64,000 nt of DNA from an uncultured Nitrospira sp. (GCA_902500825.1 CABVRX010000003.1:1-64000), one strand, 5' to 3'. Shown: positions 7,913-60,073, counted from the first letter of the stretch. Numbers and translations are program-made. Notes: generated by a model not told the origin, from the sequence alone.

Positions 7913-8908
7913 GTGTCACGAGAACTCTCACTCGCGGAAGTTTTCCAGCTCGGCTACTACTGGGAGACCAAAATCCTCCTGACGGCCGTGAAGCTGGATG
8001 TCTTTTCCGCAATCGGTGAAAAACCGAAGGCCGCCCAGGACATTGCAGGTCGAATTCAGGCCGATGAGCCGACCTTGGTGCTTCTCTTGAACGCCCTCGT
8101 CGCAATGAAGTTGTTGACGAAGGAGGAGGAGGGTGATTTGTATGGCAACTCGTCGACGTCGCTGAAGCACCTCGCCCGGCATTCGGGGCAATACGTCGGC
8201 CATCTTCTCCTTTTGCACGATGCGGAATGGAACAACTGGGGAAATTTGGAGGAGACGATTCGAACGGGACGACGGGCAGTCGAGCGGCATGTCTTCGAGA
8301 CCGATCCAGAATTGGGGAGCAACGTGTTGGCGGTGCTCAATCGGATCGGCCAGCAAAGCGGACCTGATTTTGCCAAACGGCTGAAGCTCATGGGAAGCGA
8401 ACGGCTGTTGGATCTAGGCGGCGGGGCCGGTACCAACTCCATCGCCTTTTGTCAGGTGTACGCTGAATTACGCGCGACGGTCTTCGATCTTCCGGCGACG
8501 TTGAAGTTGACGGAAAAAACGGTCAAGGACGCAGGGTTGGAGTCACGAATCACACTGCATCCCGGTGATTTCAATAAAGATCAACTCGGGGGACCGTACG
8601 ATGTGGTCCTGATGTCGGACATTCTTCACTATCAAACGTTCCAGATGAATCACGATCTGGTCAAAAAGGCCTTCGTATCGCTGGCGCCGGGGGGGCGATT
8701 GATCATTAAGGATCGCTTCCTGGACGAGGCCGGTACCGGCCCTGCTTGGACCACCGCGTTCACGGTCCATATTCTTGTGAATACGCAGCACGGCAGTTGT
8801 TACAAATGCAGCGATGCGATGCAATGGTTGACCAAGTCTGGATTTGACTCTGTCGTAGAATTGGAAAAGACGGCTGTCGTGCAGGGTCTGAAATCTCGTG
8901 AAGCGTGA
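7913..8908 (+). CDS. SAM-dependent O-methyltransferase family protein
   Basis: The product (331 residues) has a winged-helix dimerisation domain in the first 100 residues, as in CrtF/acetylserotonin-type methyltransferases. A SAM-binding Rossmann domain follows, with glycine motif LLDLGGGAGT near residue 165, the acidic loop end VFDLP, and LAPGGRLIIKD later. The start is GTG without a strong ribosome site. It leads a co-directional row that includes DUF420, PCP_red and bd-like oxidase genes, so a role in cofactor, haem or quinone modification is possible but not shown. The stop lies in a short CGTGAAG repeat. Confidence 0.8.
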   Translation: MSRELSLAEVFQLGYYWETKILLTAVKLDVFSAIGEKPKAAQDIAGRIQADEPTLVLLLNALVAMKLLTKEEEGDLYGNSSTSLKHLARHSGQYVGHLLLLHDAEWNNWGNLEETIRTGRRAVERHVFETDPELGSNVLAVLNRIGQQSGPDFAKRLKLMGSERLLDLGGGAGTNSIAFCQVYAELRATVFDLPATLKLTEKTVKDAGLESRITLHPGDFNKDQLGGPYDVVLMSDILHYQTFQMNHDLVKKAFVSLAPGGRLIIKDRFLDEAGTGPAWTTAFTVHILVNTQHGSCYKCSDAMQWLTKSGFDSVVELEKTAVVQGLKSREA

Positions 8909-9004
8909 AGCCCGCTTCGACTCAGCGAAGCGAGCGCCGTCCATGAAACGCGAACTCAATTTCGTGGTGCGATTCTTGAGATACGAGCGACGAAGAGCAG
9001 AGCG

Positions 9005-9718
9005 ATGGATTGGTTAAGAGAACCGGGGTTCTTCGGAACCCACGCCACAACCGGGGCGGACTTAAGCCAATTAATGGCCACTTTGTTTACTACGCTCTTT
9101 GTCATTGGGTGGTACCAGGCGCGTAAGCGACAGGCCGATGCACATCATTGGTTGATGCTGGGTGGAATGATTTCCATGCTCAGCTTCTTCATCGCCTACT
9201 ATTTGTTTCGTCAGCTCGGCGTTTTGGCCGTGGAGGGGAAAGAGGGATTCGGCGGCTCTCAATCGCTCTATGATTATGTTTTCATTCCGGTGCTCACGCT
9301 CCACATCATCCTTGTCATCATCGGCTTGGTCATGGCGGTGTACATGATTGTGCTCGGTTTTCGCGCTCAACAGTTGGTCGACGGGGTGCGCTCCCTCCGT
9401 GAATCACGGTTGCTTACGACATGGAAGAAAATCGGACTCATCTTCAGCGGAATCGCCTTTGTAGTGCTGGGGTTATTTTTTTCGCGCGTGGCCACGGCCG
9501 GTTTTTCAATGCGAAAGCTGGAGGTGTATCTCGTATTTCTTATGGTGGTCGCGTTTGTGTTCGCAATTGAAATGACGATTCAACGGATCTGGCCTGATGG
9601 AGCGCAGCGGCATCGCGCGCTCGGCCGATTTACGATGGTCATTTACTGCGTCTTGTTTGTCACAGGGAGCTTTACCTACACCATGTTGTATATTCTTTAT
9701 CCCGGGAAGATTGGGTAA
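9005..9718 (+). CDS. DUF420-type polytopic membrane protein
   Basis: This 237-residue membrane protein has about six hydrophobic spans. The arrangement, with conserved histidines in DAHHWLML and TLHIILVI and a long YDYVFIPVLTLHI segment, is that of the DUF420 (YozB/CtaM-like) family, often found beside terminal oxidase genes and thought to assist oxidase assembly. Here it lies 2.4 kb before bd-like oxidase copy 1, which fits that role. The function is inferred from family and position only. Confidence 0.7.
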   Translation: MDWLREPGFFGTHATTGADLSQLMATLFTTLFVIGWYQARKRQADAHHWLMLGGMISMLSFFIAYYLFRQLGVLAVEGKEGFGGSQSLYDYVFIPVLTLHIILVIIGLVMAVYMIVLGFRAQQLVDGVRSLRESRLLTTWKKIGLIFSGIAFVVLGLFFSRVATAGFSMRKLEVYLVFLMVVAFVFAIEMTIQRIWPDGAQRHRALGRFTMVIYCVLFVTGSFTYTMLYILYPGKIG

Positions 9719-9727
9719 TGTATTGAG

Positions 9728-10219
9728 ATGCTGACCTGCGGCTGTGGTCGATGGATGCATACGGAAGGGATTGAGGAACGTGACGGGGAAAACGGTATCT
9801 CTCAGTGGTTCATCCGATCGGAATGCAAAGGCTGTGGTCTGAAAGTCGGTGTCGACGTACCGGAGGGACAGACGCACGGATTGGTCGATCGATTCATGTG
9901 GACTGACGAGGCATTGCACCGGCTGGATCGCCTCCCGCCTTATGTGGCAACTCTCGTTCAAAAGGATGTGGAACACGATGCTCATCAGCGTGGAACTCGG
10001 GTGATCTCGTACGATGTGTTGTTACGTCCACAAGGCGGGGAGCGAATTGAATGGGAGCCTGAAGCCGAGCGGCGGCTGGAACGAGTGCCGGCTCCGGTTC
10101 GGGCCATGGCTCGGATCGAACTCGAACGCACCGCGGCGGATCGTGGATCATCACGCGTTACGGTGTCGCTGATGGAAGAAGTGAAGGCGAAGTACTTTGG
10201 AATGGGGGCTTCAAAATAG
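9728..10219 (+). CDS. Zinc-ribbon protein with PCP_red-type domain
   Basis: The 163-residue product begins with CGCG and CKGCG cysteine pairs (residues 4-6 and about 35-38), likely a small metal site. Two similar helical units follow: WTDEALHRLDRLPPYV and WEPEAERRLERVPAPV, the second ending SLMEEVKAKY. The second unit matches the PCP_red domain first described at the C-terminus of light-independent protochlorophyllide reductase B. In non-phototrophs this domain occurs in small proteins of unknown function. The gene starts 9 bases after the DUF420 gene, so the two are probably co-transcribed. Confidence 0.65.
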   Translation: MLTCGCGRWMHTEGIEERDGENGISQWFIRSECKGCGLKVGVDVPEGQTHGLVDRFMWTDEALHRLDRLPPYVATLVQKDVEHDAHQRGTRVISYDVLLRPQGGERIEWEPEAERRLERVPAPVRAMARIELERTAADRGSSRVTVSLMEEVKAKYFGMGASK

Positions 10220-10230
10220 TAACGAGTGTT

Positions 10231-10304
10231 GAGGACTGAGAAGGGGAAATGGGTAACACCGGCCATTTCTCCGGCTCAGTCCTCAGTCCTGCTATCTCAG
10301 TCCT
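10231..10304 (+). repeat. Hairpin with three CTCAGTCCT repeats
   Basis: GAGGACTGAG 10231-10240 pairs with CTCAGTCCTC 10275-10284, and inner arms GAAATGG 10246-10252 and CCATTTC 10263-10269 extend the stem. Direct copies of CTCAGTCCT start at 10275, 10282 and 10296. The element explains why the downstream gene should start at 10312 rather than at the earlier in-frame ATG at 10249. Confidence 0.6.
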
Positions 10305-10311
10305 GAATATC

Positions 10312-11379
10312 ATGTTGCATCGGATGGCCTTGCGGGTGCTTCCGAGTTTAAGTTTGGCGGTTACGGAAGAGCCCGTGCGCAAGCAAAAACGGATCGTGAT
10401 GTTTGTCCCCGGGCTGATTGCGTTCGGGGTGTATCGTCTCGTCAAACATCTCGTTCCAATCGCAGATCCCCTTGTGCTGTTGACGGTCAGTAGTCTGGTG
10501 GCAGCGGTCACCTCGGTCCTGGCCTATCGGGTCGGTCGGGCTGCCCCGTGGTCCGTCATCGTCCGCCAAGATGGAGCGCGCCTCCTCAGCTGGCTTGCCG
10601 GCTGGATCGGTGCCGTCTATGGCATTCAGCTCTCGTTGTTGGTGCTGACTCTGTTGTGGATCATGAATTACGATTATCTCCAACATCCTGATGGGCCCGC
10701 CATGATGGCGATCATCATTTCATGCACGGCGGTCGCTCGCGACGCGTTTGAAATCGGACATGTGCGCAAGCTCTCGGTGTTGGGACGACCGTTTCTCACG
10801 TTCCCTGATGGAGCGCAACTTCGTGCCTTGGTGCAGTCTAGGGCTTGGCAATGGGGGCCCTGGACCGCTGCTGGCATTGGTATGGGCGCAACTGCATCAT
10901 TGTCGGGGTTCGCCATCGCGGATGTTCAGGGAGCTGCGTTGGCTCAATTGTTGAGCGTGACAGTTTTCGGCGGAGGTCTGGCACTCTGCGCCTACTTTGG
11001 CGGGCTTTATCCGTCTGTCCCGTGGGTTCACACACTCCGCCAAACCGCGTCGGGGGAATTGCTGAAGTATTGGTGGTGGCCCGGGATGGCCTTTGCCTCG
11101 ACCTATTATCTTGTGGCGATGGGACTGTTGCTGTTTGTCGTACGGCAGCCGACGATTACGCCGGCCTCAGCCGCCGTGATGGGTGCCCTGGTTACGGCGG
11201 TGATGGGCTTGTATGGGTATTATCTGGGTGATCGCCGCCATGTGGAGGATGAACAGGCTCCGCAACTATCGAGTGGAATGTTGCGTTGTCCGTTTGTGAT
11301 GGGGATTCTTGGAAAACCGGTCAGTGCCGACGGTGCGGCTGGGGAGTTGGCAATCGGCAAGACCGGAATGAAGGGGTAG
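10312..11379 (+). CDS. Polytopic membrane protein of unknown function
   Basis: I do not recognise a family. The 355-residue product has around eight hydrophobic spans, a short HIGHVRKL-type charged loop near the middle, a repeated tryptophan-rich turn (WWWPGMAF) and a soluble C-terminus containing SGMLRCPFVMGILG. The start is placed after the hairpin repeat; an ATG at 10324 is also possible. The gene ends 4 bases before bd-like oxidase copy 1, so the two are very probably in one operon. It could be an oxidase partner or assembly factor; this is inferred only from position. Confidence 0.65.
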   Translation: MLHRMALRVLPSLSLAVTEEPVRKQKRIVMFVPGLIAFGVYRLVKHLVPIADPLVLLTVSSLVAAVTSVLAYRVGRAAPWSVIVRQDGARLLSWLAGWIGAVYGIQLSLLVLTLLWIMNYDYLQHPDGPAMMAIIISCTAVARDAFEIGHVRKLSVLGRPFLTFPDGAQLRALVQSRAWQWGPWTAAGIGMGATASLSGFAIADVQGAALAQLLSVTVFGGGLALCAYFGGLYPSVPWVHTLRQTASGELLKYWWWPGMAFASTYYLVAMGLLLFVVRQPTITPASAAVMGALVTAVMGLYGYYLGDRRHVEDEQAPQLSSGMLRCPFVMGILGKPVSADGAAGELAIGKTGMKG

Positions 11380-11383
11380 GGAT

Positions 11384-13258
11384 ATGGGGCAAGGATTCAG
11401 GTTGAAACGCTCCTTGATCAGTGTTGCGATCTGTATCGCGATGGTCGCGATCACCATTGGAAGCGTGTGGAACGGGCCGGATCCGTCATTTGCGGAATCG
11501 TCGACGGATGTGTACTTCGGCACTGAGGGAACTCCGCAGGGACCGGCGGCTCCCACTCCTCATGAAACGGTCTATCCGCGTATCGGCTCGTTGGACAGTC
11601 GGTTGCTGGTGTGGTTTGTGACGCAGCAACATACCTATTTCGGAGGATTCGTTCTCGCCCTGCCGTTATTTTGCGCATTGCTTGAGTTTCTTGGACTCAT
11701 AACCTCGAAGCCGGCCTTGGCCCTTCGCTACGATGGTCTGGCGAGAGATCTCGCGAAGGTAGCGGTCTTGGCTCTGTCGGTCTCGGCGCTCATCGGCAGC
11801 CTGATGCTGACGATGTTCATCATGCTGTATCCCAGTTTCATGAAGTATATGGGTGGAACATTCAAAGGGTTTATGCCGGCCTACGCGGCCGTGTTTGTCG
11901 GAGAGGCGCTGCTGCTGATCGTCTATTACTATGGGTGGAATCGGATGACGGATCGGGGCATGAAATGGATTCACGCCGCGATCGGGATTCTGACCAACAT
12001 TGTGGGAACGGCCTTATTGATGATGGCGAATGCTTGGTCTGCCTTCATGATGTCGCCTGCCGGGGTGGATGCGCAAGGGCGATTCCTGGGAAACGCCTGG
12101 CATCTGCTGCACTCAGCGCTGTGGAACCCTCTGAACGTCCATCGCTTCCTCGCGGATATCATGTCCGGTGGGGCTGTGGTGCTGGCCTATGCCTGTTATC
12201 GGTTTTTTACCAGTAAAACCGACGAAGAACGGGCCTATTTCGATTGGGTGGGATATGTCTTCCTGTTTGTCACAGTCTGCGCGCTCATCCCCATGCCTAT
12301 TGCAGGCTATTGGCTGATGAAGTCCGTGTTCGTGTTTCGCCAGACCATGGGTGTGACGATGATGGGCGGGTTGCTTACCTGGCTGTTTGTCGTTCAGGCC
12401 CTCTTGATTGGTGTCCTCTTCTTAGGAATCAACTACTACCTCTGGCAGAGCATGGCTCGAATCAAAGGGGGCGAGCGCTATCAGCCCTACTACCAGCTCT
12501 TGTTGGGTGTCTTAATGCTGGCGCTCTTTATTTGGCTGACACCGCACACCTTATTGATGTCTGCGAGCGAAGTGAAGGCGATGGGTGGGGCTCAACATCC
12601 CGTGATCGGCAACTATGGTGTCATGTCGGCCAAGAATGGAGCGGTCAACATCCTGATTCTCGTCACGGCGCTCAGTTTTTTGTACTATCGTCGGGCGAAT
12701 CGAACCATGACCATTTCGTGGGCCAAAACCGGAAATATCGTGCTCGCCGTGCTCTACCTGGTCGGTGCGTTGAACATTATCTGGCTGTCTATTTACGGAT
12801 TCTATTTGCCGGCAAAGATTCGTGTCGGTCTGTCAGCGCCTCAAGCTATTACGACGCTGACGGTGATCATAACCGGTGTGGTGATCAACCGCCTCATGCT
12901 CAGAGGAGCTGTGCTGCATGGCCCGATTCAGTGGGGGAAGATTCCGCTGCGCGGCATGGTTGGATTGTTTGGATTGGCTGCGTCCTTCAGTTGGGTGATG
13001 GGTTTGATGGGATACATTCGTTCGTCTGGGCGCTTGTCATGGCATGTCAGTGAGTTGATGGCCGATGTTTCACCTTGGGCGTTCACGCCGGATCTTCAAT
13101 ATGCCACGAAAATGGTAACGCTGAACATGGTGGTATTTTGGGCAGCCGTTCTGGCGTTGTTCTGGATGTGCGAGCGGGGGCAACAGCCGGTGATGGGCGA
13201 GGAACTTCAGGAGGAACAGGCGCCTTTGCTTTCGCCGGTTCCATCGCAAGAAACATAG
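11384..13258 (+). CDS. Cytochrome bd-like oxidase subunit I, copy 1
   Basis: This 624-residue membrane protein has an N-terminal signal or anchor, a periplasmic stretch of about 40 residues, then about 14 spans. It aligns by eye along its length with the copy at 16822. Segments reminiscent of bd subunit I include QQHTYFGGFVLALP (a candidate haem histidine), VYYYGWNRM and MMANAWSAFMMSPAGVD. The quinol-loop motif GRQPW is absent and no subunit II gene is adjacent, so the electron donor may not be quinol. Nitrospira genomes are known to carry such bd-like proteins, proposed as terminal oxidases. Unlike copy 2, no cytochrome c genes follow. Confidence 0.82.
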   Translation: MGQGFRLKRSLISVAICIAMVAITIGSVWNGPDPSFAESSTDVYFGTEGTPQGPAAPTPHETVYPRIGSLDSRLLVWFVTQQHTYFGGFVLALPLFCALLEFLGLITSKPALALRYDGLARDLAKVAVLALSVSALIGSLMLTMFIMLYPSFMKYMGGTFKGFMPAYAAVFVGEALLLIVYYYGWNRMTDRGMKWIHAAIGILTNIVGTALLMMANAWSAFMMSPAGVDAQGRFLGNAWHLLHSALWNPLNVHRFLADIMSGGAVVLAYACYRFFTSKTDEERAYFDWVGYVFLFVTVCALIPMPIAGYWLMKSVFVFRQTMGVTMMGGLLTWLFVVQALLIGVLFLGINYYLWQSMARIKGGERYQPYYQLLLGVLMLALFIWLTPHTLLMSASEVKAMGGAQHPVIGNYGVMSAKNGAVNILILVTALSFLYYRRANRTMTISWAKTGNIVLAVLYLVGALNIIWLSIYGFYLPAKIRVGLSAPQAITTLTVIITGVVINRLMLRGAVLHGPIQWGKIPLRGMVGLFGLAASFSWVMGLMGYIRSSGRLSWHVSELMADVSPWAFTPDLQYATKMVTLNMVVFWAAVLALFWMCERGQQPVMGEELQEEQAPLLSPVPSQET

Positions 13259-14324: not shown

Positions 14325-14348
14325 GTACTCTCGATTAACGAGGTGTTC

Positions 14349-15269
14349 GTGGAAAACAAAGGTGTGTTAGTCGGGTCCATCATTTTTGTATTTACATCGT
14401 TTTTTCTCATGATCGGCCTGTTGGCCTATGAGTCATATAAGGCCAAGCAAATGAAACAGCTTGTCGCATCAGTGAAGTCGGAAGCTCGACCGACGGCGAG
14501 TAGCCTGCCGGCTCAGGATTTCTCGATGTACAAGACAAAAATCGGAGATGAAGGCCGAGAAATGGTGCAGATCCCGGAAGGCCCTTTTACGATGGGAAGC
14601 AATGACGGCGATCCGGATGAAGCTCCTGAGCACCAAGTCTACTTGAAGGGGTTCTATCTCGACCGAAAAGAAGTCACCCAAGAGGAATACATGCGGTTCG
14701 CGAAAATGACCAAACGCGCCATGCCCAGGATTGAGGTGTTCGACGATGATCAGTCGAAGATTTTGAAGCCGGGATTGGCTGCCATGAGCGTCTCCTGGGA
14801 CGAAGCGGCCGCCTACTGCAAGTGGGCCGGCAAGCGACTTCCCACTGAAGCAGAGTGGGAGAAGGCCGGCCGAGGCGAGAGCAAGAGAAAATATCCGTGG
14901 GGAGATAAATTTACCATCAACGCCGCCAATGTCGACGGTAGCGAGGATGGGTATAAGTATCTGGCGCCCCCCGGATCGTTCGAGGCAGGGCGGAGTCCCT
15001 ACGGCCTTTATGACATGACGGGTAACGTAGCGGAATGGGTGGAGGATTCATACAGTGAACACTACTATAAGAAATCTCCATTTCGTGACCCTAAGGGACC
15101 GGAGAATGCTGACCTCAAGGTCGTGCGCGGAGGCTCATGGCGGGAAACGGAGCATAATGCGAGGTTGTCAAAGCGGTTTGCCGCCAAACATTGGCGGACG
15201 GACGTGACGATCGGCATTCGTTGTGCGAGTGCTCTGGAGCAAACTGTCGGAGACGGCGCTGAGTCATAG
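14349..15269 (+). CDS. Membrane-anchored formylglycine-enzyme-like (SUMF1-fold) protein 1
   Basis: The 306-residue product has one N-terminal span (residues about 8-28) and then an FGE-sulfatase domain: MVQIPEGPFTMGS, HQVYLKGFYLDRKEVTQEEY, GKRLPTEAEWEKAGRG, YDMTGNVAEWVED and VVRGGSW. True formylglycine-generating enzymes have two cysteines after RGGSW; here that segment reads RETEHNARLSKR with none, so sulfatase activation is unlikely. The domain probably faces the periplasm in a structural or binding role. GTG 14349 is preceded by GAGGT; GTG 14343 is an alternative. A paralogue follows after 6 bases. Confidence 0.82.
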   Translation: MENKGVLVGSIIFVFTSFFLMIGLLAYESYKAKQMKQLVASVKSEARPTASSLPAQDFSMYKTKIGDEGREMVQIPEGPFTMGSNDGDPDEAPEHQVYLKGFYLDRKEVTQEEYMRFAKMTKRAMPRIEVFDDDQSKILKPGLAAMSVSWDEAAAYCKWAGKRLPTEAEWEKAGRGESKRKYPWGDKFTINAANVDGSEDGYKYLAPPGSFEAGRSPYGLYDMTGNVAEWVEDSYSEHYYKKSPFRDPKGPENADLKVVRGGSWRETEHNARLSKRFAAKHWRTDVTIGIRCASALEQTVGDGAES

Positions 15270-15275
15270 ATCAGT

Positions 15276-16172
15276 ATGCTCGAATCAAAATTCAAATTGG
15301 TCTTTCTGCTTGTTGTGCTGGCCTGTGCTGCGATGCCCATCATCGCCATCTTGCGTGGTACTACGTTAACGCCGTATGAAAAGTCAGAGTCTGGAGCTGA
15401 CGCTGAAGTTGACGCGACGCCAGAGAGCGCTCCTGGAGAGGAACCGATTCCAGACGAGATGGTGACGATTTCAGCAGGGCCGTTCGAACGTGGAACTGAG
15501 AGCGGAGGGTTCGATGAACAGCCGCGGCGCACCATCTTCCTCGATGCTTTTTCGATTGATCGGTACGAAGTGACCAATCATCAATATCAACAGTTCGTCC
15601 TGTCGACCGGCCATCGGAAGCCTGGGCTACCTGCGCGGTACGCTAAGAACGGTGGAAAGATGAAAGGAACGAATCAGCCGGTCGTCTATGTGTCGTGGGA
15701 TGATGCGGCGGAATATTGCCGCTGGAAAGGCAAGCGGCTTCCAAGCGAAGCCGAATGGGAAAAAGCCATGCGAGGCACCGACGGGAGACTTTGGCCCTGG
15801 GGAAACCAGGAGCAACCTCATGGTGCGAATTGGGCCCGTGTGCAGGACGGCCATGAGGTATCTGCACGTGTGGGGAGTTTCATGACTGACAAAAGTCCGT
15901 ACGGGGTGATGGATGGGGCCGGCAATGTCATCGAATGGGTGGCTGATTGGTACGATGAGACCTATTACAAGGACTCGCCGGAACAGAATCCACCAAGCCC
16001 TGAGTATGGCACCTATCGGGTGCTTCGAGGTGGAGGCTATACGACGACCGGCGGGGATATTCGGGTCACCAGCCGAAGCAAAATGATGCCGGATTTTCGA
16101 GATGAGACGATCGGATTTCGTTGCGCAATTTCTGCGACGGAAACGAAAGAAAGTGGAGAGAGGAAAACCTGA
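15276..16172 (+). CDS. Membrane-anchored formylglycine-enzyme-like (SUMF1-fold) protein 2
   Basis: This is a paralogue of the preceding gene: one N-terminal span (FLLVVLACAAMPIIAIL), an acidic linker, then the same domain with MVTISAGPFERGTE, SIDRYEVTNHQYQQF, GKRLPSEAEWEKAMRG, GVMDGAGNVIEWVADW and VLRGGGY. The position of the catalytic cysteines is again empty (TTTGGDIRVTSR). The two genes probably arose by tandem duplication and are co-transcribed. Similar domains occur in Nitrospira respiratory clusters, but the role is not known to me. Confidence 0.82.
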   Translation: MLESKFKLVFLLVVLACAAMPIIAILRGTTLTPYEKSESGADAEVDATPESAPGEEPIPDEMVTISAGPFERGTESGGFDEQPRRTIFLDAFSIDRYEVTNHQYQQFVLSTGHRKPGLPARYAKNGGKMKGTNQPVVYVSWDDAAEYCRWKGKRLPSEAEWEKAMRGTDGRLWPWGNQEQPHGANWARVQDGHEVSARVGSFMTDKSPYGVMDGAGNVIEWVADWYDETYYKDSPEQNPPSPEYGTYRVLRGGGYTTTGGDIRVTSRSKMMPDFRDETIGFRCAISATETKESGERKT

Positions 16173-16177
16173 TGAAT

Positions 16178-16282
16178 TTACAAAAAATCAAAGTAGTAGA
16201 GAATCAAAAACACGGCCAAAATGATGTTGACAACCATACCGGCCAAAACTATAATGTCAAACACTTTTGAGTTTTTTGTCAC
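16178..16282 (-). CDS. Tiny single-span membrane protein (34 aa, minus strand)
   Basis: A 34-codon frame on the minus strand reads MTKNSKVFDI, then a hydrophobic helix (IVLAGMVVNIILAVFLILYY), then FDFL. Its GTG start is preceded by AGGAGA at normal spacing. It is convergent with the gene ending at 16172 and divergent from the next small genes. The size and shape resemble small accessory subunits of membrane oxidases, but the opposite strand argues for separate control. Its reality rests on the ribosome site and the clean membrane helix. Confidence 0.5.
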   Translation of the reverse strand: MTKNSKVFDIIVLAGMVVNIILAVFLILYYFDFL

Positions 16283-16406: not shown

Positions 16407-16529
16407 ATGGCTACAGCTACCCCTGATAGCGACATTAAGATAAAAATCGGCAAGATGATTTTCTACATTACTTGTGCGGTAGGAATATGGTTTTTCTACT
16501 GGTTTGCCGGAGTCCAGTGTCCCTGCTGA
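16407..16529 (+). CDS. Tiny single-span membrane protein (40 aa)
   Basis: The 40-residue frame begins MATATPDSDIKIKIGK, followed by an aromatic-rich helix (MIFYITCAVGIWFFYWFAG) and ends VQCPC. GGAG lies about 12 bases before the ATG. It is the first of two small plus-strand genes ahead of bd-like oxidase copy 2. By size and position it could be an accessory subunit, analogous to CydX in bd oxidases, although no sequence similarity is claimed. Confidence 0.55.
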   Translation: MATATPDSDIKIKIGKMIFYITCAVGIWFFYWFAGVQCPC

Positions 16530-16611: not shown

Positions 16612-16743
16612 ATGAGCGCGTTGAATAATCCTGTAATCGCGGTAATTGTCTCACTCATTATTGCAGTCGGCTATTTTACGCTGGTCGACCATTATCTGAT
16701 GGATATGCAGGGGCTGGACTACTGGTACCTGTTCCGGAAGTAA
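16612..16743 (+). CDS. Tiny single-span membrane protein (43 aa)
   Basis: The 43-residue frame (MSALNNPV, then IAVIVSLIIAVGYFTLV, then DHYLMDMQGLDYWYLFRK) has one clear membrane helix and an aromatic tail. GAGGAG lies about 10 bases upstream of the ATG. It ends 78 bases before the start of oxidase copy 2 and is the best candidate for a small oxidase subunit in this cluster. I do not recognise a named family. Confidence 0.6.
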   Translation: MSALNNPVIAVIVSLIIAVGYFTLVDHYLMDMQGLDYWYLFRK

Positions 16744-16821: not shown

Positions 16822-18738
16822 ATGGGCCTTTTAACCGGCAAGCGCGTATTCTCAATTATGGCGCTCTGCATGATGGTTGGCCTCCTTCTGCTTCCGATCG
16901 TCGTAGCTCTGCCTTCACCGGCTATCGGTGAGGAGGCTCCCGCCGGCGATGCGGTGAAGAAGGATGGAGATAAAGTAGAAAAGGGTCGGGATGTCTATTA
17001 TAAGACCGAAGGTATTGTAGTCGGTGCTCCTGCCCCTAAGACTACGGATGGCCCCAAGGACTATCCGAGATACAACTTTGAAAGTCGCGTGTTGCTCTGG
17101 TTTGCTAATCAGCAGCACCTTTATTATGGCAGCTTCGTGTTGGCTGTGCCCATCTTCTGCATGATCATCGAGTTTATGGGCGTGGTAACGAAGGATAAGG
17201 CGCTTGCAAAACGCTACGATCAGCTGGCTTATGACTTTATCAAGATCAGTCTTACGGCATACTCTCTCACGGCTATCCTTGGTGGCATTCTAATCTTTAC
17301 GTTTCTGACTCTGTACCCGGCGTTCTTCGGGTATCTGTCCAGCATATTCCGTCCTGTCATGCACATCTACGCATTGATGTTCGTGGCTGAGAGCGGAACC
17401 CTCTATATCTACTATTATGGTTGGGACAAGATGAAGGAGGGTTTCTTGAAGTGGATTCACCTGAGTATGTCGGTGATCCTAAACATCATCGGCACGTTGC
17501 TCATGTTCTTGGCAAATTCATGGATTGGCTTCATGATGTCGCCGGCCGGCGTCGATGAGCAGGGGCGATACCTTGGAAATATCTGGCATGTGATCCATAC
17601 GGCCTTGTGGAACCCTCTCAACCTCCATCGCATTCTGGGCAACATGGCGTTCGGCGGAGGAGTTGTGGCCGCTTACGCCGCCTATAAGTTCCTCGCAGCG
17701 AAAACCGATGAGGATCGAGCGCACTACGATTGGATGGGCTACATCGCCATGGCGCTCGGCGTGTCTTTCCTGATCCCCCTACCCTTTGCCGGTTATTGGC
17801 TTATGCGCGAAGTATACGCGTATCGTCAGCAGATGGGGATCACGTTGATGGGTGGGTTGCTGGCCTGGCTGTTTATTATCCAAGCCACGATGATCGGCAT
17901 TCTTTTCTTGAGCACCAATTACTATCTCTGGCAAGCAATGGGCCGCATGCGCGGCGCCGAAAAGTATCAACGGTACATTAAGTATCTTGTGTTTCTGCTA
18001 GTCTGCGGTTTCCTGGTTTTTATTACTCCTCACACAATGGTCATGTCGCCCGCCGAATTGAAGGCCATGGGAGGTCAGCAGCATCCAGTGCTCGGGAACT
18101 TCGGCGTCATGTCTGCAAAGAATGGCGGCATCAACGTCATTATTACAACGACCGTCCTGAGTTTTGTGTGGTACATGCGAGGCAATAAAGTCTCAACTGT
18201 GTCATGGGCGAAATTCGGGAACATCTTTATGGGCGTATTCTTTGCTTGTGCGTACGTTAACATCATCTGGCTGGCTATTTACGGGTATTACATCCCCGCG
18301 AACGTGCGAGTTGGTTTGTCCGTCCCTCAAGTGGCGACAACGTTGTCATGTCTCTTCTTTATGTTCGCGCTGAATAGCGTGATGATGAGAGGGGCAAAGC
18401 AAATGGGTCCAATTGAGTGGGGTAAAATTTCCGTCCGTTCGCAATATGCCCTCATTATGTTGGCAACGGCCTTTACCTGGATGATGGCATTGATGGGCTA
18501 TATTCGCTCTTCAGTCCGTCTATTTTGGCACGTCAATGAGATCATGCGCGACAATTCCCCATGGGCCTATACACATACGGTTGGATTTGCTGCCAACATG
18601 ATTTCGTTCAATGTATTGTTTTTCTGGATCAGTATTCTTTTCGTCTTCTGGATGGGGAGTTTGGCGGCGAAGAAGGTTCCGGTGGAGGCCAAAGCTGGCA
18701 TCCCGGGCAATGTCCCGCAGCCGGCTGCTAGTCACTAA
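16822..18738 (+). CDS. Cytochrome bd-like oxidase subunit I, copy 2
   Basis: The 638-residue membrane protein is a paralogue of the one at 11384, with the same segments: QQHLYYGSFVLAVP (H99), YYYGWDKM, LANSWIGFMMSPAGVDEQGR, GNIWHVIHTALWNPLN and PHTMVMSPAELKAMGGQQHP. A perfect AAGGAGGT at 16809-16816 fixes the start at ATG 16822 rather than the upstream GTG. It has a signal or anchor and about 14 spans, and no GRQPW quinol loop. Three cytochrome c genes follow, so a cytochrome c-linked terminal oxidase role, as proposed for Nitrospira bd-like proteins, is plausible. Haem content cannot be proven from sequence. Confidence 0.87.
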   Translation: MGLLTGKRVFSIMALCMMVGLLLLPIVVALPSPAIGEEAPAGDAVKKDGDKVEKGRDVYYKTEGIVVGAPAPKTTDGPKDYPRYNFESRVLLWFANQQHLYYGSFVLAVPIFCMIIEFMGVVTKDKALAKRYDQLAYDFIKISLTAYSLTAILGGILIFTFLTLYPAFFGYLSSIFRPVMHIYALMFVAESGTLYIYYYGWDKMKEGFLKWIHLSMSVILNIIGTLLMFLANSWIGFMMSPAGVDEQGRYLGNIWHVIHTALWNPLNLHRILGNMAFGGGVVAAYAAYKFLAAKTDEDRAHYDWMGYIAMALGVSFLIPLPFAGYWLMREVYAYRQQMGITLMGGLLAWLFIIQATMIGILFLSTNYYLWQAMGRMRGAEKYQRYIKYLVFLLVCGFLVFITPHTMVMSPAELKAMGGQQHPVLGNFGVMSAKNGGINVIITTTVLSFVWYMRGNKVSTVSWAKFGNIFMGVFFACAYVNIIWLAIYGYYIPANVRVGLSVPQVATTLSCLFFMFALNSVMMRGAKQMGPIEWGKISVRSQYALIMLATAFTWMMALMGYIRSSVRLFWHVNEIMRDNSPWAYTHTVGFAANMISFNVLFFWISILFVFWMGSLAAKKVPVEAKAGIPGNVPQPAASH

Positions 18739-18814
18739 TCACCGACTTTTATCGATAGTTGGTGTATGGCGGCGGAGATTATCTTCCCTGCTCTAGCTGT
18801 AGGAGGTCAAGACC

Positions 18815-20125
18815 TTGGGTAATCTGATTGCTGAGACGCTTTCAATGAGTTGGATGGCTTTGGCCATCCTGGCGGGCCTGTTTGTTTATTTTCAGGTATC
18901 GATCAGTGATCCTGTTGCAAAGAAGCGGGCAACTTTCAAAACCTTTATTGGAATTGTCGGGACGTTTTTGCTTTTTATGGCGATTGCCAATTACAAGAAC
19001 AATTTTTACGGTGAGAACCGGCTTTTGCCCGTCTCGTTGGTGGTGATCACTGTGACGACCTTTGTCATGGCGTTGTACTTCACTAATATTAGCGCCATGC
19101 TGAAAGTTGGCGGATTCATGTTCTTTGTGGCGGCGTTTCTTTCCGGATATGGAAATTGGCTTCCGCAAGTCGAAGGTGGTTTCCCGCCAAAGGAAGAGAA
19201 GCTGGATTTTAGTTCGATGACCTCTCAGCAACTCGCAGATGAGGGTGAAAAAATCATCTTCGGTGGGATTGGAAAAAATAAAGAGCAGGGTGCAATTGGG
19301 AAGGGACAATGTCCGCTGTGCCATGCCTTTCACGCCGGCATGCTCGGTGAGCGAGCTCCAAATCTCTTGGGTCTTCCGGAGCGTTCCGACAAAGAACGTT
19401 TGACAGATCCTAAGTATTCCAAGGGCAATCCGTCCAAGCGTGAATATGAACAAAAGGAAGCGTTCCCAGGGTCAGGAACTGCTGAAAATGCGCTAGAGTA
19501 TATTGCGGAATCACATGCCTGCCCAAGTTGTTATGTTGTGGCAGGGTATGGAGTGAAGGGCACTAACGACAAACAGAGTCCGATGCCGGCGATCCACAAG
19601 CCACCAATCTCTTTAAGCCTTCAAGAGCTGGCAGCCGTAGACACCTGGTTCTATGTCCGTGAAGGTCGCGACTCGCCTTCTTTCGAAGAAATTGTGAAGT
19701 CGTACGAAAAGTTTATCCCTGAAGCTGACCGTCCTAAGATGGCCGAGGATAAGCCTGCGGGAGCCACTTCGCTCATGGCTGATGGGTCAGAACCAGTTGA
19801 TCAAATTTTTGCCAAAGCACAATGCGTGTCATGCCATACGATCCCAGGGATTCCCGGCGCTATGGGAACGATCGGTCCGAAGCTGGAAGAGGGTACAACC
19901 GCCCCGCAGCGCATCAAGGATCCCACGTATAAAGGTACTGCAAAGTCTTCTGCTGAATATATTATGGAATCTATCGTAGATCCGAGCGCCTTCGTGGTGA
20001 AGCCGTTTCCTGACAACACGATGCCCAAAGTCTTTGGGCAAAAGCTGAGCGCTGGTGCCTTGAAAAAGATCGTCGATTATTTGTCACAGGTGAAGGCCGG
20101 AGCGCCGCCACCAAAGATTTCGTAG
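18815..20125 (+). CDS. Membrane-anchored dihaem cytochrome c
   Basis: The 436-residue product has four hydrophobic segments in the first 115 residues, then two cytochrome c domains with CPLCH at 166-170 and CVSCH at 337-341. Candidate axial methionines are M257 (SPMPAIH) and the one in DNTMPKVFG. A third motif, CPSCY at 236-240, looks like a haem site that lost its histidine. The TTG start has AGGAGGT 7 bases upstream. It follows oxidase copy 2 by 76 bases. It probably passes electrons to the oxidase from the periplasmic side. Confidence 0.9.
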   Translation: MGNLIAETLSMSWMALAILAGLFVYFQVSISDPVAKKRATFKTFIGIVGTFLLFMAIANYKNNFYGENRLLPVSLVVITVTTFVMALYFTNISAMLKVGGFMFFVAAFLSGYGNWLPQVEGGFPPKEEKLDFSSMTSQQLADEGEKIIFGGIGKNKEQGAIGKGQCPLCHAFHAGMLGERAPNLLGLPERSDKERLTDPKYSKGNPSKREYEQKEAFPGSGTAENALEYIAESHACPSCYVVAGYGVKGTNDKQSPMPAIHKPPISLSLQELAAVDTWFYVREGRDSPSFEEIVKSYEKFIPEADRPKMAEDKPAGATSLMADGSEPVDQIFAKAQCVSCHTIPGIPGAMGTIGPKLEEGTTAPQRIKDPTYKGTAKSSAEYIMESIVDPSAFVVKPFPDNTMPKVFGQKLSAGALKKIVDYLSQVKAGAPPPKIS

Positions 20126-20166
20126 TCTCCAGCTGCTTTAATGCGGAGAGCAAAGGGAGTTTGCCG

Positions 20167-21204
20167 ATGAAAGCGTTGATGTCACTCGGTGCCTTGATTG
20201 GAGTAGCAGGGCTTGTCCTTCTGGGAGGGATGATTTTTGACGTTATTCCGTCCACCACTGTACGCTTGGTCGAAGGCTATATGCCGATGCAAATGCTTTT
20301 TGAGTTTGCATGCTTCGTCGCCGGATTTGCAGGATTGAGCTACATGATGAGCGCCGTGGGAATGCCGTTTCCACGTTTTTGGCAGGGAATTGGGTTCTGG
20401 GCATTTGTGCTGCTTTATCTGAAGTATCGCGTCTATCCTCCGATTCCATTCAGTGTCCGTGCCATGTACGGAACTGTTACCCTTGTCGCCGTATTCATGT
20501 GGATCTCGGCGAATGAAGAAGACTGGAAGAAATTCAAGCAGCCGATTATGAACGTGCTTGATGCGCAAACTGGTATGAATAAGCTTTTGCGGTATGCGTA
20601 TCTTGTGCTCCTTCCAATTCTTATCGGTGGCTTTTCCTACAACGCAATGAAGCCGAAGTCTGAGGAGCCGATCGAATTACGAACGGTCCATCCAGCGCCG
20701 CCGGCAAGCACAAAAGTCCATGGTAAGACGTATACATTGCAGACCTCGCAGAATCCTTACCGTGTGAATCCGGAAGGAAAATACGATCAGGAATTCTCAA
20801 ACGCCAACATCGTCGAACAGGGCATGGGGCGATTGATGAAGCCGAACGCCAATCCATGGGATGACAAGAATACTGGATATTTGAAGTACGTGCGAGAAGG
20901 GGGAGAGATATTCTTCCAAAATTGTCATTTCTGCCATGGTGATAATCTCAACGGTCGCGGGCTTCATGCTTTCGCCTTTAATCCGATTCCTGCAAATTTC
21001 ACCGATCCAGGCACTATTGCGCAGCTTCAAGAAACCTTTATCTTCTGGCGTGTGTCAAAGGGCGGGATCGGGTTACCCAACGAAGGTTTCCCTTGGGCTT
21101 CAGTTATGCCTCCGTGGGAACAGCACCTGACTGTTGATGAAATCTGGAAAGTGATTCTGTTTGAGTATTGGCACACAGGGTACTATCCCCGAACCTGGGA
21201 TTAG
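20167..21204 (+). CDS. Membrane-anchored monohaem cytochrome c
   Basis: The 345-residue product has five hydrophobic spans in the first 160 residues and one C-terminal cytochrome c domain with CHFCH at 253-257. The domain carries NLNGRGLHAFAFNPIPANFTD and a candidate axial methionine in WASVMPPWEQHL. ATG 20167 has AGGGAG at good spacing; a TTG six bases earlier is a poorer start. It lies between the dihaem cytochrome and the dihaem/NxrC-like fusion, with short gaps, so all three are likely to be one operon and possibly one complex with oxidase copy 2. Confidence 0.9.
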   Translation: MKALMSLGALIGVAGLVLLGGMIFDVIPSTTVRLVEGYMPMQMLFEFACFVAGFAGLSYMMSAVGMPFPRFWQGIGFWAFVLLYLKYRVYPPIPFSVRAMYGTVTLVAVFMWISANEEDWKKFKQPIMNVLDAQTGMNKLLRYAYLVLLPILIGGFSYNAMKPKSEEPIELRTVHPAPPASTKVHGKTYTLQTSQNPYRVNPEGKYDQEFSNANIVEQGMGRLMKPNANPWDDKNTGYLKYVREGGEIFFQNCHFCHGDNLNGRGLHAFAFNPIPANFTDPGTIAQLQETFIFWRVSKGGIGLPNEGFPWASVMPPWEQHLTVDEIWKVILFEYWHTGYYPRTWD

Positions 21205-21255
21205 TTGCCAAACAGTTTGATTGCCAAACCAAACAAAATGGAGATGAGGTTAACC

Positions 21256-23028
21256 ATGATAGACAGCATTACTCAGAAGGCCGGAATCATAGCGGCTGCT
21301 GCCTTCGGAGTCGTTCTTGTGTCAAGTGCAGGGTTTTCAATTGCTTTGGCCCAAGGACTTCCTGAAGGCTTTAAGAAGGGAGATCTTGCTCCTGAACCGT
21401 CGGCAGACATGATTGAAGCGGGAAAGCGAGTCTATTTTACCAAATGCGTGTGGTGTCACGGAGTAGACGGTGCCGGTGACGGACCCGGAGCCGATCGCCT
21501 CTGGCCTCGCCCGCGGAACTTCAATCAAGGGACTTTTAAAATTCGCCACACGGCGAGCGGTGAGCTCCCATTGTTTGATGCGAAAAAGCCGATCCCGGGA
21601 CAAAACGACCTCTTTGAAACAGTTACTCATGGATTGCCAGGTTCTGCCATGCCCTCGTGGGAGGGAATCTTGACCGAAGAGCAGCGCCTTCAGGTCCTGT
21701 CTTTTGTCACCACTCAACTGGTCAAGGATCGGAAATTCACTGACAAGCAATCGGAAACCCAGACGGTGCTGCAGCTGGCTGATCTTAAACCAAAACCTGC
21801 GACCGACGAGAGCAAGAAACGGGGTTCCGAACTCGTCGTCGAAAGGAAATGCGTCGAGTGTCACGGGATGGAAGGGCGCGGAGACGGAAACGCTTTTAAT
21901 TTAAAGGACGACTGGGGTTTCTCAATTCAACCGGCTGATTGGCACAAGTGTTGGAACTTCCGAGGTAGTCGTCAAGATCCGTATAATGTTGCCAACATCT
22001 TCCGAACATTCTCGACCGGTGTCAACGGCACCCCAATGCCATCATTTGCTGATAACACCACAGTTGATGAGCGTTGGGATATCGCAAATTTCGTCAATTC
22101 TCTGTGTGAGCGGGATGCATTGGGTAATCCGCTTCCAATTGATCCATTAACCGATAAACCAAAAATCAACTTCGTGATCCCGTCCGATCTTGTTGAGGGA
22201 GAAATACCGGTTGATATCGAGCATGAAGCTTGGCAAAAGACTTCCAAGCGCTATGTGGCGATGGGAGGGCAAATCACCCATAAGCCGAGAAATTTCGTCA
22301 ATCGAATTGATGATATTTGGGTGCGCTCTCTCTATAACGACAAGTCAATTGTCTATCTTATCGAGTGGGATGACAGAACCAAGAGTGTGGCTGAAGGAAA
22401 GCTTCCTTGGGCCCCAACCCAGGTCAATATAGATGTTAAAGAGCAGGATCCGAAGACAGGCGAAGAAGGCTCAATCGCAGCGCACCAAAACAACTACACT
22501 GTGTACAACGATGCCATTGCTATTGAGACTGCCGTAAAGTGGAAAGAGTTACCGGCTCCGATCAAGCCTCGCTATCTGTTCGGGAGTAACGACCAATTCC
22601 CTGTTGACATCGTCAAGTGGGAAGCCGACGGATCCCTCCGCGCGTTTAAAGGTACGGGATGGGATAAGGATTTCGAGGAGCGCGACAATTACGAAGAGAG
22701 CATGAAGCTCTTAAAGAGTGAGTGGAAGAACGGACGCTGGTACGTCATGTTTCAGCGGCCGGTGGGAAATAAGAAAGATCAGGATTATGATGAGGATACC
22801 TTCTTCGAGGTAGGACAATATATCCCAACCGTGTTTTTTGCGTGGGACGGGCATAATGGTGATGCCGGACGAAAGATGGCGGTGTCGGCGTTCTTCTATA
22901 CCTTTATGAACCCACCGATCCCTCAGGAAACGTATATTTATCCAGCCGTTATTGCGGTGGGCGTTGTCTTGCTGGAAGGATGGGTTTTGACTCGTCGAGC
23001 CAACAAGAAGAAGGGCAAGACGCTGTAG
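21256..23028 (+). CDS. Dihaem cytochrome c fused to NxrC-like (EB_dh) domain
   Basis: The 590-residue product has a signal peptide (cleavage near IALAQ-GL). Two cytochrome c domains follow, with CVWCH at 64-68 and CVECH at 199-203. An ethylbenzene dehydrogenase gamma-type domain, known to bind haem b with Met and Lys ligands, covers roughly 310-560, and a C-terminal anchor helix ends RRANKKKGKTL. ATG 21256 has GAGG six bases upstream; earlier in-frame ATGs are weaker. It may link a periplasmic electron source to the adjacent cytochromes and oxidase. The domain order is a fusion not found in the two stand-alone NxrC-like proteins of this window. Confidence 0.85.
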   Translation: MIDSITQKAGIIAAAAFGVVLVSSAGFSIALAQGLPEGFKKGDLAPEPSADMIEAGKRVYFTKCVWCHGVDGAGDGPGADRLWPRPRNFNQGTFKIRHTASGELPLFDAKKPIPGQNDLFETVTHGLPGSAMPSWEGILTEEQRLQVLSFVTTQLVKDRKFTDKQSETQTVLQLADLKPKPATDESKKRGSELVVERKCVECHGMEGRGDGNAFNLKDDWGFSIQPADWHKCWNFRGSRQDPYNVANIFRTFSTGVNGTPMPSFADNTTVDERWDIANFVNSLCERDALGNPLPIDPLTDKPKINFVIPSDLVEGEIPVDIEHEAWQKTSKRYVAMGGQITHKPRNFVNRIDDIWVRSLYNDKSIVYLIEWDDRTKSVAEGKLPWAPTQVNIDVKEQDPKTGEEGSIAAHQNNYTVYNDAIAIETAVKWKELPAPIKPRYLFGSNDQFPVDIVKWEADGSLRAFKGTGWDKDFEERDNYEESMKLLKSEWKNGRWYVMFQRPVGNKKDQDYDEDTFFEVGQYIPTVFFAWDGHNGDAGRKMAVSAFFYTFMNPPIPQETYIYPAVIAVGVVLLEGWVLTRRANKKKGKTL

Positions 23029-23066
23029 CGTTCCTTAGAGACGCGCTTTCGCGCAGTAAAGAGATG

Positions 23067-23100
23067 GAGGGGGTAGGGCGACCTACCCCCTCTTTTTTTT
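23067..23100 (+). terminator. Strong terminator after the oxidase/cytochrome operon
   Basis: GAGGGGGTAGG 23067-23077 pairs perfectly with CCTACCCCCTC 23082-23092 across a 4-base loop, followed by eight T. Confidence 0.95.
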
Positions 23101-50470: not shown

Positions 50471-50538
50471 GTTTGGTTTGGTAACGGTTCAGGGCACAAA
50501 CGCATTTTTTATCATAATTGAGAGGAGGGAGTAGCACT

Positions 50539-51489
50539 ATGAGGATCGCGCAGACGACCAACAAGAAATTGGTGTTTGCCATTCTTCTCTCCGCCCTCAC
50601 TGTCGGCCTGATGCTGACGTTGGGGCGAGTACCACTCGCCGTCAGTCAGCCGGTGACGATCCCGGCTAAGACGGTGAAGGGCCCAATTCCAATGGACGGC
50701 GCCAACCCCATATGGGAAGGTGTTCCCGGCGTTGTCGTTCCGTTGAGTGGTCAGCTCATCACGACACCGATGCACCCGAATATCTCGGTGAAGTCGGTAT
50801 TCGTCAAGGCGATGACCAACGGAAAAGAGGTTGGGTTGCGGCTGGAGTGGATTGATCAAACGAAGAATGACACCACGATTGGCCCGCAGGACTTCAGGGA
50901 CCAGGTTGCGGTGATGTTTCCGGTGAATACGGCCGGGGCTCCGCCGTTCCAGTGTATGGGACAGTCCGGCGGGACGACCAACATCTGGCGGTGGAATGCG
51001 GAATGGCAGAAGGACCTCGGTAAGGACAGCGCGGGAATCTGGGATGTCGATGATCAGTATCCCGGCATTTTCTGGGACTACTATTTTGAAGAGCCGGCCG
51101 GGGGCGTCACTTATCCCGACCGTATCGGACGAAGCCTGGGACCATTCAACTCCGGCATCTGGTCCGGGAACATCATGTCTGATCCGACACTTCGCGTGAG
51201 TTCGGTTGAAGATTTGAGCGCGAACGGCTTCAGCACTCTCACGACGCAAGCTCACCAGGATGTCCTCGGAAATGGCGTCTGGGAGCCGTCGGGATCCGTC
51301 AAGGGCGGTGGGTACACCGGCCCGACATGGCGGGTTGTCGTGAAGCGGACCTTGGAAAACGGCGATGCGAACGATGTCCAGTTCAAGACAGGAATGTCGG
51401 TGCCGATCGCGTTTGCAGTGTGGGACGGCGCCAACATCGAGCGGAACGGCATGAAGTCGCTGTCGACCTGGTTCACATTGAAGCTGTAG
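50539..51489 (+). CDS. NxrC-like protein 1 (EB_dh gamma-type haem b protein)
   Basis: The 316-residue product has a signal peptide (residues 1-36) and one ethylbenzene dehydrogenase gamma-type domain. Such subunits bind haem b with a Met and a Lys; candidate ligands here are M in QCMGQ and K in NGMKSLSTW. LRLEWIDQTKND and FRDQVAVMF are shared with the protein at 57364. ATG 50539 is preceded by AGGAGGG. It is a candidate gamma subunit of nitrite oxidoreductase, though nxrA and nxrB are not in the window. Confidence 0.82.
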   Translation: MRIAQTTNKKLVFAILLSALTVGLMLTLGRVPLAVSQPVTIPAKTVKGPIPMDGANPIWEGVPGVVVPLSGQLITTPMHPNISVKSVFVKAMTNGKEVGLRLEWIDQTKNDTTIGPQDFRDQVAVMFPVNTAGAPPFQCMGQSGGTTNIWRWNAEWQKDLGKDSAGIWDVDDQYPGIFWDYYFEEPAGGVTYPDRIGRSLGPFNSGIWSGNIMSDPTLRVSSVEDLSANGFSTLTTQAHQDVLGNGVWEPSGSVKGGGYTGPTWRVVVKRTLENGDANDVQFKTGMSVPIAFAVWDGANIERNGMKSLSTWFTLKL

Positions 51490-57282: not shown

Positions 57283-57363
57283 TCGATAACCCCTTGCCTC
57301 CGCATTTGTCCCGCACGGGTTTTGTGGTATTCTGAGTTCGAATTTTTCTCGGAGTACTGCGCG

Positions 57364-58197
57364 GTGCGAATGACGTCCATCGACAGTTCCCACTCTCACT
57401 TTCTTGGGTTGCTTTTCAGTCTTATTATTGTTGTTGCCGGTGTGCTCGGAGCGTTCGGGATTCCGCTGGTCAGTTCGGAGGGGATGACCGTCAGATCGTA
57501 CTTGGTCCAAGGCGACCTGCCGAATGCCGCCGATGATGCCGCGTGGAAGAAGGTCTCGCCGATCACGATTCCACTGAGCGGGCAAGTGATCACCAGGCCG
57601 GTGTGGCCGGAACCCACCGTGCGGGCACTAATCGTAAAGTCCGTGCACAACGGAACCGAGATCGCCTTCCTCCTGGAATGGCAGGACAACACGAAGAATG
57701 ATCAGCTGACTCCCGGCACTTTCCGGGATGGAGTCGCCGTCGGCATTCCCCTCGGCGATGCGCCGGCATTTTTCTGCATGGGACAGTTGGACCACTACAT
57801 CAATATCTGGCATTGGAAGGCGGATTGGCAGAGCGATATCGATCGACGAGCGGCTCGGGCATCGGAGAAAAAAGAGGGAGGGGTTCGAACGTTCGAGGTC
57901 ATTCCTCGGCGGGTTTCTTCGGTAGAGGATTTAATCGGCGGAGGATTCAGCACGCTGACCACAAAGGAGAGACAGGGAAGAGTGCAGGGACAAGCGGTAT
58001 GGAGGGATGGTGTCTGGCATGTCGTGATGCGGCGTCCGTTGGCAAGCGAGGAGCAAGAGAATGAAGCCTTGCTCGTTCCTGGTCGCATTCAGGCCGTTTC
58101 ATTCGCCGTGTGGAATGGAGAAAATAAGGAGCGAAACGGCCAGAAGGCAGTGGCGCCGTGGTTTCAACTAAGCATCGATCCTGTCGCAAAACTGTAA
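57364..58197 (+). CDS. NxrC-like protein 2 (EB_dh gamma-type haem b protein)
   Basis: The 277-residue product is a paralogue of the protein at 50539: LSGQVITRP, FLLEWQDNTKND, FRDGVAVGI, FFCMGQ and NGQKAVAPWF match in order. A signal or anchor lies at about 12-35. The candidate haem ligands M (CMGQ) and K (NGQK) are kept. GTG 57364 has GGAG at workable spacing; ATG 57370 and an upstream TTG are alternatives. It may replace NxrC-like 1 in another complex. Confidence 0.8.
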   Translation: MRMTSIDSSHSHFLGLLFSLIIVVAGVLGAFGIPLVSSEGMTVRSYLVQGDLPNAADDAAWKKVSPITIPLSGQVITRPVWPEPTVRALIVKSVHNGTEIAFLLEWQDNTKNDQLTPGTFRDGVAVGIPLGDAPAFFCMGQLDHYINIWHWKADWQSDIDRRAARASEKKEGGVRTFEVIPRRVSSVEDLIGGGFSTLTTKERQGRVQGQAVWRDGVWHVVMRRPLASEEQENEALLVPGRIQAVSFAVWNGENKERNGQKAVAPWFQLSIDPVAKL

Positions 58198-60061: not shown

Positions 60062-60073
60062 GGTTCGGTCATC

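Follow-up and report, generated by a model that had tools for sequence, protein, structure and literature searches.

The window analysed here is a stretch of 64,000 nucleotides from an uncultured Nitrospira sp. (GCA_902500825.1, CABVRX010000003.1:1-64000), which lies on contig C3 of a Nitrospira-like draft genome. It carries a module of genes for a bd-like oxidase subunit, two membrane cytochromes c and a fusion of a dihaem cytochrome c with a domain resembling NxrC, the gamma-type subunit of nitrite oxidoreductase (NXR). Four same-strand open reading frames (ORFs), bdA, cyc2, cyc1 and altC, were found where a sequence-only reading of the window had placed a four-gene operon (16822-23028). Consensus matches for a promoter and a terminator-like hairpin, which are patterns only, enclose six genes rather than four, the additional two being the small genes SmA and SmB. 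The small genes, both patterns and a second bd-like gene, bdB, had not featured in that reading (Table 1). The bdA gene starts with ATG preceded by AGGAGG. The altC gene starts with TTG abutting cyc1, and the ATG at 21238 is an alternative start. The CxxCH motifs of cyc2, cyc1 and altC number 2, 1 and 2, which bears out the five c-type haems attributed earlier to the three downstream genes; the count is the same in almost every relative's copy.

Table 1. Features of the bdA-cyc2-cyc1-altC module and of the associated bd-like gene, in coordinates of the window.
Feature	Position	Strand	Evidence and remarks
bdB, second CydA-like gene, bd-like_4 by gene order	11384..13258	+	Associated paralogue, membership in the complex putative
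Putative sigma-70-type promoter, TTGACA-17-TATAAT, upstream of SmA	16227..16255	+	12/12 consensus match, pattern only
SmA, 40 aa, single-helix membrane protein, candidate small subunit (GK..FY ... WFFYWF)	16407..16529	+	Profile, pN/pS
SmB, 43 aa, single-helix membrane protein, candidate small subunit (YF...DH..M..QGL.Y)	16612..16743	+	Profile, position, pN/pS
bdA (ORF1), CydA-like multi-helix subunit, bd-like_3 of N. moscoviensis by gene order	16822..18738	+	Pfam, alignment, Foldseek
cyc2 (ORF2), dihaem cytochrome c, N-terminal helices; CPLCH at residue 166, CVSCH at 337	18815..20125	+	
cyc1 (ORF3), monohaem cytochrome c, N-terminal helices; CHFCH at residue 255	20161..21204	+	
altC (ORF4, alt_NxrC_2), 607 residues, dihaem cytochrome c/NxrC-like fusion	21205..23028	+	
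Terminator-like hairpin after altC: 12 bp stem, 8 GC pairs, then T tract	23066..23093	+	Pattern match only

The bdA product matches the Pfam family Cyt_bd_oxida_I (PF01654) with 71.7 bits over its N-terminal 250 residues, and the comparison with CydA by hhalign likewise covered the N-terminal part alone. In the alignment with CydA, the canonical quinol residues K252 and E257 and the quinol loop (Q-loop) have no counterpart in bdA. No CydB is encoded at the module; the only CydB of the genome sits beside a canonical CydA on contig C2. The absence of both the quinol loop and subunit II, as predicted from the sequence alone, thus holds. Five haem ligand positions are retained (H99, E190, H269, M338 and E412). 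The equivalents of E. coli CydA H19, E107 and H186 are present in the alignment, and the counterparts of M393 and E445 do not vary among module bdA proteins from different phyla, anammox bacteria included. The latter two were reassigned by motif and their invariance was checked on the bd-like set, since MAFFT misaligned them against canonical CydA at the Q-loop gap. All five are also kept in nearly all bdB and in the bd-like copy of the altNxrC1 cassette, while the position of CydA E99 is occupied by Tyr throughout the bd-like set. The AlphaFold model of bdA is moderate, with a mean predicted local distance difference test score (pLDDT) of 63. Searching with it in Foldseek gave ten matches at E ≤ 0.001, every one a CydA chain. 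The model supports the family, not the ligand geometry; global superpositions are loose, so the M393 and E445 assignments rest on sequence alignment. In its CydA-type helix bundle, its haem ligands and its lack of the Q-loop and CydB, bdA agrees with the OR-N-like bd superfamily, a classification adopted from PMC12342949 and PMC10839748, and it lacks the Q-loop with K252/E257 and the CydB partner of the canonical CydAB quinol oxidase.

The two small genes upstream of bdA apparently belong to the operon and are newly noticed as conserved genes. The SmB profile matches 136 of the 146 Nitrospiria genomes of the sample (112 Nitrospirales and 34 from other orders), in a single copy each; 134 of these copies share the strand of bdA and precede it by 47-275 bp, and the remaining two sit on separate contigs. 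Of 65 bd-like loci, which also cover solo paralogues and anammox loci truncated on the upstream side, 31 have the SmB motif upstream of bdA; it is absent from all 2738 control windows. Its M, Q and L are invariant in 18 sequences. The SmA profile has matches at 32 module loci, all of them 224-534 bp upstream of bdA and in its orientation. This profile was built from 14 loci, so some of the 32 are its seeds; loci outside the seed set include L053, L054, L055, L057, L061, L064, L071-L075, L078-L081 and L085. The best match elsewhere, among 25804 ORFs, had E = 0.17. Substitutions between close relatives are nearly all synonymous: the proportions of nonsynonymous (pN) and synonymous (pS) differences are 0.01-0.08 vs 0.51-0.73 for SmA and 0.00-0.04 vs 0.60-0.76 for SmB. 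A chance origin of the ORFs was rejected on the basis of the control windows, the pN/pS values and the ORF-set search. Neither gene has a useful match in Pfam or NCBIfam, the two databases checked. Solo bdA paralogues were not seen to have either gene, and no similar ORF was seen upstream of bdA in the two anammox genomes checked. By analogy, SmA and SmB resemble CydX-type small subunits in position and size.

The altC product combines a dihaem cytochrome c domain (CVWCH at 81, CVECH at 216; best PDB match 6h5l chain B, E = 1e-39) with a domain resembling NxrC and the gamma subunit of ethylbenzene dehydrogenase (EBDH) at about residues 330-566, followed by a C-terminal hydrophobic helix. The Pfam match to the EB_dh/type II DMSO reductase gamma domain is weak (36.0 bits against a cut-off of 33.3), and TIGR03477 gives 51.7 bits, far under its cut-off of 169.85; profile comparison of the C-terminal domain with NXR-C/EBDH gamma returned a probability of 99.6%. 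The AlphaFold model of altC was discarded (pLDDT 47, predicted template modelling score 0.34). In Kuenenia NXR-C, the axial ligands of haem b are Met155 and Lys305 (PMC8387239). At these columns altC has Phe and Met, with MAFFT and the profile-profile alignment in agreement. Other Nitrospirota copies have Phe, Trp, His or Arg in place of Met155, and Met, Thr, Ser and similar residues in place of Lys305. The pair is never complete in the Nitrospirota and Nitrospinota modules examined; Met alone is kept in a minority of module copies (L059, L151 and L156). Both residues are retained in anammox altC, in nxrA-adjacent fusions and in the two NxrC genes of the window. Since the ligands are replaced, haem b of the known form is unlikely in altC; other residues might bind one. 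The haem b domain proposed earlier is therefore not borne out, and judging from these residues the haem b link in Nitrospira is probably broken. The fusion itself is real and conserved, but in Nitrospira its gamma-type domain is without the haem b ligands that would let it carry electrons away from NXR. Compared with an NXR gamma subunit, altC possesses the gamma domain, lacks the Met/Lys ligands and does not follow NxrA in its occurrence. Elsewhere in the window, two NxrC candidates with intact Met/Lys ligands are encoded at 50518-51489 and 57322-58197, and the same region encodes two proteins matching multihaem cytochrome domains (58733-61315).

The distribution of the module was compared with that of NxrA in the Nitrospiria sample. 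The profile TIGR03479 was too unspecific for NxrA calls, and a Nitrospira NxrA query was used instead (E ≤ 1e-60; E ≤ 1e-150 for bdA). The bdA gene was found in 143 of the 146 genomes, including 32 of the 34 non-Nitrospirales. NxrA was found in 96, all of them Nitrospirales (96/112 vs 0/34). The order bdA-cyc2-cyc1-altC is present in 15/15 fetched Nitrospirales loci and complete in 14 of the 15 fetched loci from the other Nitrospiria orders, the fifteenth having diverged copies in the same order; altC accompanies bdA in all 15 of the latter. The module is near-universal in Nitrospiria orders without NxrA and hence not confined to nitrite oxidation. The genome that holds the window gave no NxrA match. 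Repeated nxr loci were probably lost in its assembly, as NxrA is missing from other module-bearing Nitrospirales genomes too. Absence from one draft is weak evidence, but draft gaps do not explain 0/34 vs 96/112.

The same gene order occurs in Nitrospina-like, Acidiferrobacteraceae, NC10 and proteobacterial genomes and in 13 anammox loci. The anammox loci were reached by a contig scan with a Kuenenia NXR-C query, as close relatives would have swamped a Nitrospira query. In the 13 anammox loci with enough upstream sequence, the module lies about 4-5 kb upstream of nxrC on the same strand, with nxrA next where the contig extends. Some additional anammox loci, few in number and holding a second copy of nxrC, do not have this arrangement. 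The module is thus functionally linked to NXR in some lineages (anammox bacteria, and some Nitrospirales through a bdA paralogue alone), but is not NXR-specific. In one Acidiferrobacteraceae, one NC10 and one proteobacterial genome (loci L126/L150, L149 and L151), cyc1 and altC form a single open frame with three CxxCH motifs. Contact between the two proteins is favoured because they share one frame in three distant genomes.

Several paralogues accompany the module. Among the loci examined, bdB was seen near it in Nitrospirales alone. In five Nitrospirales genomes (L138-L142; G029, G043, G234, G353 and G052), nxrA is immediately preceded by a bdA paralogue of the same orientation, and the window's genome has a solo paralogue on contig C29 (L147), away from recognised nxr genes. 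In the tree, the nxrA-adjacent paralogues and the C29 copy form the sister group of module bdA. The window's genome also contains a paralogous bd-like/cyc/cyc/alt_NxrC1 cassette (L083, G000:C2:140000-159900), and loci of this type have been proposed to encode the terminal oxidase of Nitrospira (PMC6606698, PMC12342949). The locus also has a second bd-like gene (C2:146975) without the M393 and E445 positions. Upstream of the module, two adjacent FGE-sulfatase (SUMF1-like) genes (14343-16172) are conserved in Nitrospirales, and one or both are also found at most of the non-Nitrospirales Nitrospiria loci examined. Genes for a methyltransferase, a DUF420 protein, a PCP_red protein and a multi-helix protein (7913-11379) precede bdB in an order conserved across Nitrospirales.

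The gene set and order, haem motifs, ligand positions, small genes and distribution are read directly from the DNA; from these we infer the formation of a complex, its electron route and the reduction of O2. There is good support for a bd-like complex of these subunits that is linked to cytochrome c: gene order and haem count are constant, ORF3 and ORF4 share one frame in three genomes and the quinol site is absent. The complex would comprise bdA, the membrane-anchored cytochromes cyc2 and cyc1 with two haems and one haem, the single-helix small subunits SmA and SmB, and altC as a periplasmic protein held to the membrane by its C-terminal helix. A periplasmic donor of high potential would reduce the c-haems of altC; from there electrons would travel via cyc1 and cyc2 to the low-spin haem b in bdA and on to two high-spin haems, where O2 would be reduced. 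In Nitrospira these electrons would ultimately come from nitrite, with the module serving the general chain, not one dedicated to NXR. Of the earlier proposal of a cytochrome c-driven oxidase fed by nitrite oxidation, the c-linked complex holds and the tie to nitrite oxidation is weaker; the occurrence of the module in orders lacking NxrA speaks against an exclusive tie. We consider, with moderate confidence, that the module encodes a cytochrome c-fed OR-N-type oxygen reductase or a close derivative, assembled as one membrane complex in the general respiratory chain. There is about an even chance that Nitrospiria as a class possess a six-subunit complex that predates nitrite oxidation or is independent of it, with SmA and SmB as undescribed members and with the NxrC-derived domain acting as a haem-free docking or structural element in nitrite-oxidising bacteria and as a haem-bearing one beside NXR in anammox bacteria.

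Several points weigh against oxygen reduction by such a complex. Anammox bacteria live without O2 respiration. They carry the module with all haem ligands, beside NXR, so O2 reduction may be neither the ancestral nor the only reaction; this is the main reason for caution. The bdA model is moderate and its superpositions loose, as said above. No biochemical measurement on the complex was found in the literature. The pair named as terminal oxidase is OR-N2/OR-N1 (PMC12342949), to which bdA need not belong. According to PMC8026999, the variant differs at two sites from haem-copper ligand positions.

The anammox loci also bear on a scheme in which the complex anchors NXR and serves reverse electron transport, so that electrons pass from NXR or cytochrome c to the quinone pool and the bd-like subunit is no oxygen reductase; it has been put forward in PMC3578206 and PMC6606698. 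In anammox bacteria the module, ligands intact, stands beside NXR in organisms whose nitrite electrons feed reverse flow, and the five bdA paralogues directly upstream of nxrA point the same way. The known quinol site is absent from bdA, although other quinone-binding sites are possible in bd oxidases (PMC8951039). The near-universal module in Nitrospiria without NxrA and the conserved high-spin haem ligands, for which a pure quinone reductase would have no obvious use, make this scheme rather unlikely. A direct NXR-oxidase supercomplex, the model of the sequence-only reading, with NXR docked on the NxrC-like domain and this domain passing nitrite electrons straight to the oxidase, is possible but unlikely. 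The conserved fusion and the Met and Lys kept in anammox and nxrA-adjacent fusions agree with it, and the same suggestion appears in PMC8026999. However, the ligand pair is incomplete in every Nitrospirota and Nitrospinota module examined (a few keep Met alone), and the module is retained in genomes without NXR. Moreover, transcription of alt_nxrC_2 was about 4-fold below that of nxrC_2 (PMC6606698), and purification of NXR from Kuenenia gave ABC without further partners or, in tubules, ABC together with NXR-T (PMC8387239). No literature on native complexes of Nitrospira was found. It is very improbable that the module is a cytochrome c-fed reductase that detoxifies or scavenges O2, NO or peroxide instead of conserving energy as a terminal oxidase: bd enzymes have such side activities (PMC10839748) and the module is present in anaerobes, but its gene order is conserved across the whole class.

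These results address how high-potential electrons move after NXR in nitrite oxidisers and anammox bacteria. To our knowledge, most Nitrospirales lack a classical haem-copper oxidase. The NXR-independent distribution, the probable loss of haem b and the two extra conserved subunits provide testable handles, indicating which proteins to seek in native complexes and which NXR-less organisms to compare.

The four large genes and the idea of electron flow from NXR to an oxidase are already published (PMC6606698, PMC3578206 and PMC8026999). Mundinger et al. (2019, PMC6606698) described the bd-like_3/alt_NxrC_2 cluster of N. moscoviensis (NITMOv2_3640), which has the same gene content, a nearby duplicate bd-like gene and the same proposed nitrite link, and is orthologous by description. 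Luecker et al. (2013, PMC3578206) noted that the Q-loop is absent and that conservation extends to Kuenenia and Nitrospina, and in PMC8026999 the cluster is conserved and nitrite electrons are suggested to pass via the alternative NxrC to a terminal oxidase. The available text of these accounts is silent on SmA/SmB, on the lost altC ligands and on the occurrence of the module in Nitrospiria without NXR. New here are the distribution in NXR-less genomes, the retention of CydA haem ligands, anammox bacteria included, the two small genes and the single cyc1-altC frame.

Like bdA, the OR-N family (Murali et al. 2021, as used in PMC12342949 and PMC10839748) is CydA-like, lacks the Q-loop and CydB and has a presumed cytochrome c donor; its members are described as likely cytochrome c-oxidising (PMC10839748). 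The terminal oxidase proposed in these papers is OR-N1 with OR-N2; bdA is likened here to the family as a whole. The C-terminal domain of altC is homologous to NXR-C and EBDH gamma (7B04_C and 2IVF_C) but, unlike these, lacks the Met/Lys ligands, is fused to a dihaem cytochrome c and is membrane anchored. PDB 6h5l chain B, a 'conserved hypothetical cytochrome protein', is dihaem like altC but stands alone without an NxrC-like domain. Canonical CydABX shares with the module the N-terminal helical bundle, the haem ligand positions and single-helix small subunits, a CydX-like role of the latter being an analogy; unlike CydABX, the module has no Q-loop and no CydB, carries Tyr in place of E99 and includes c-type cytochromes in its operon.

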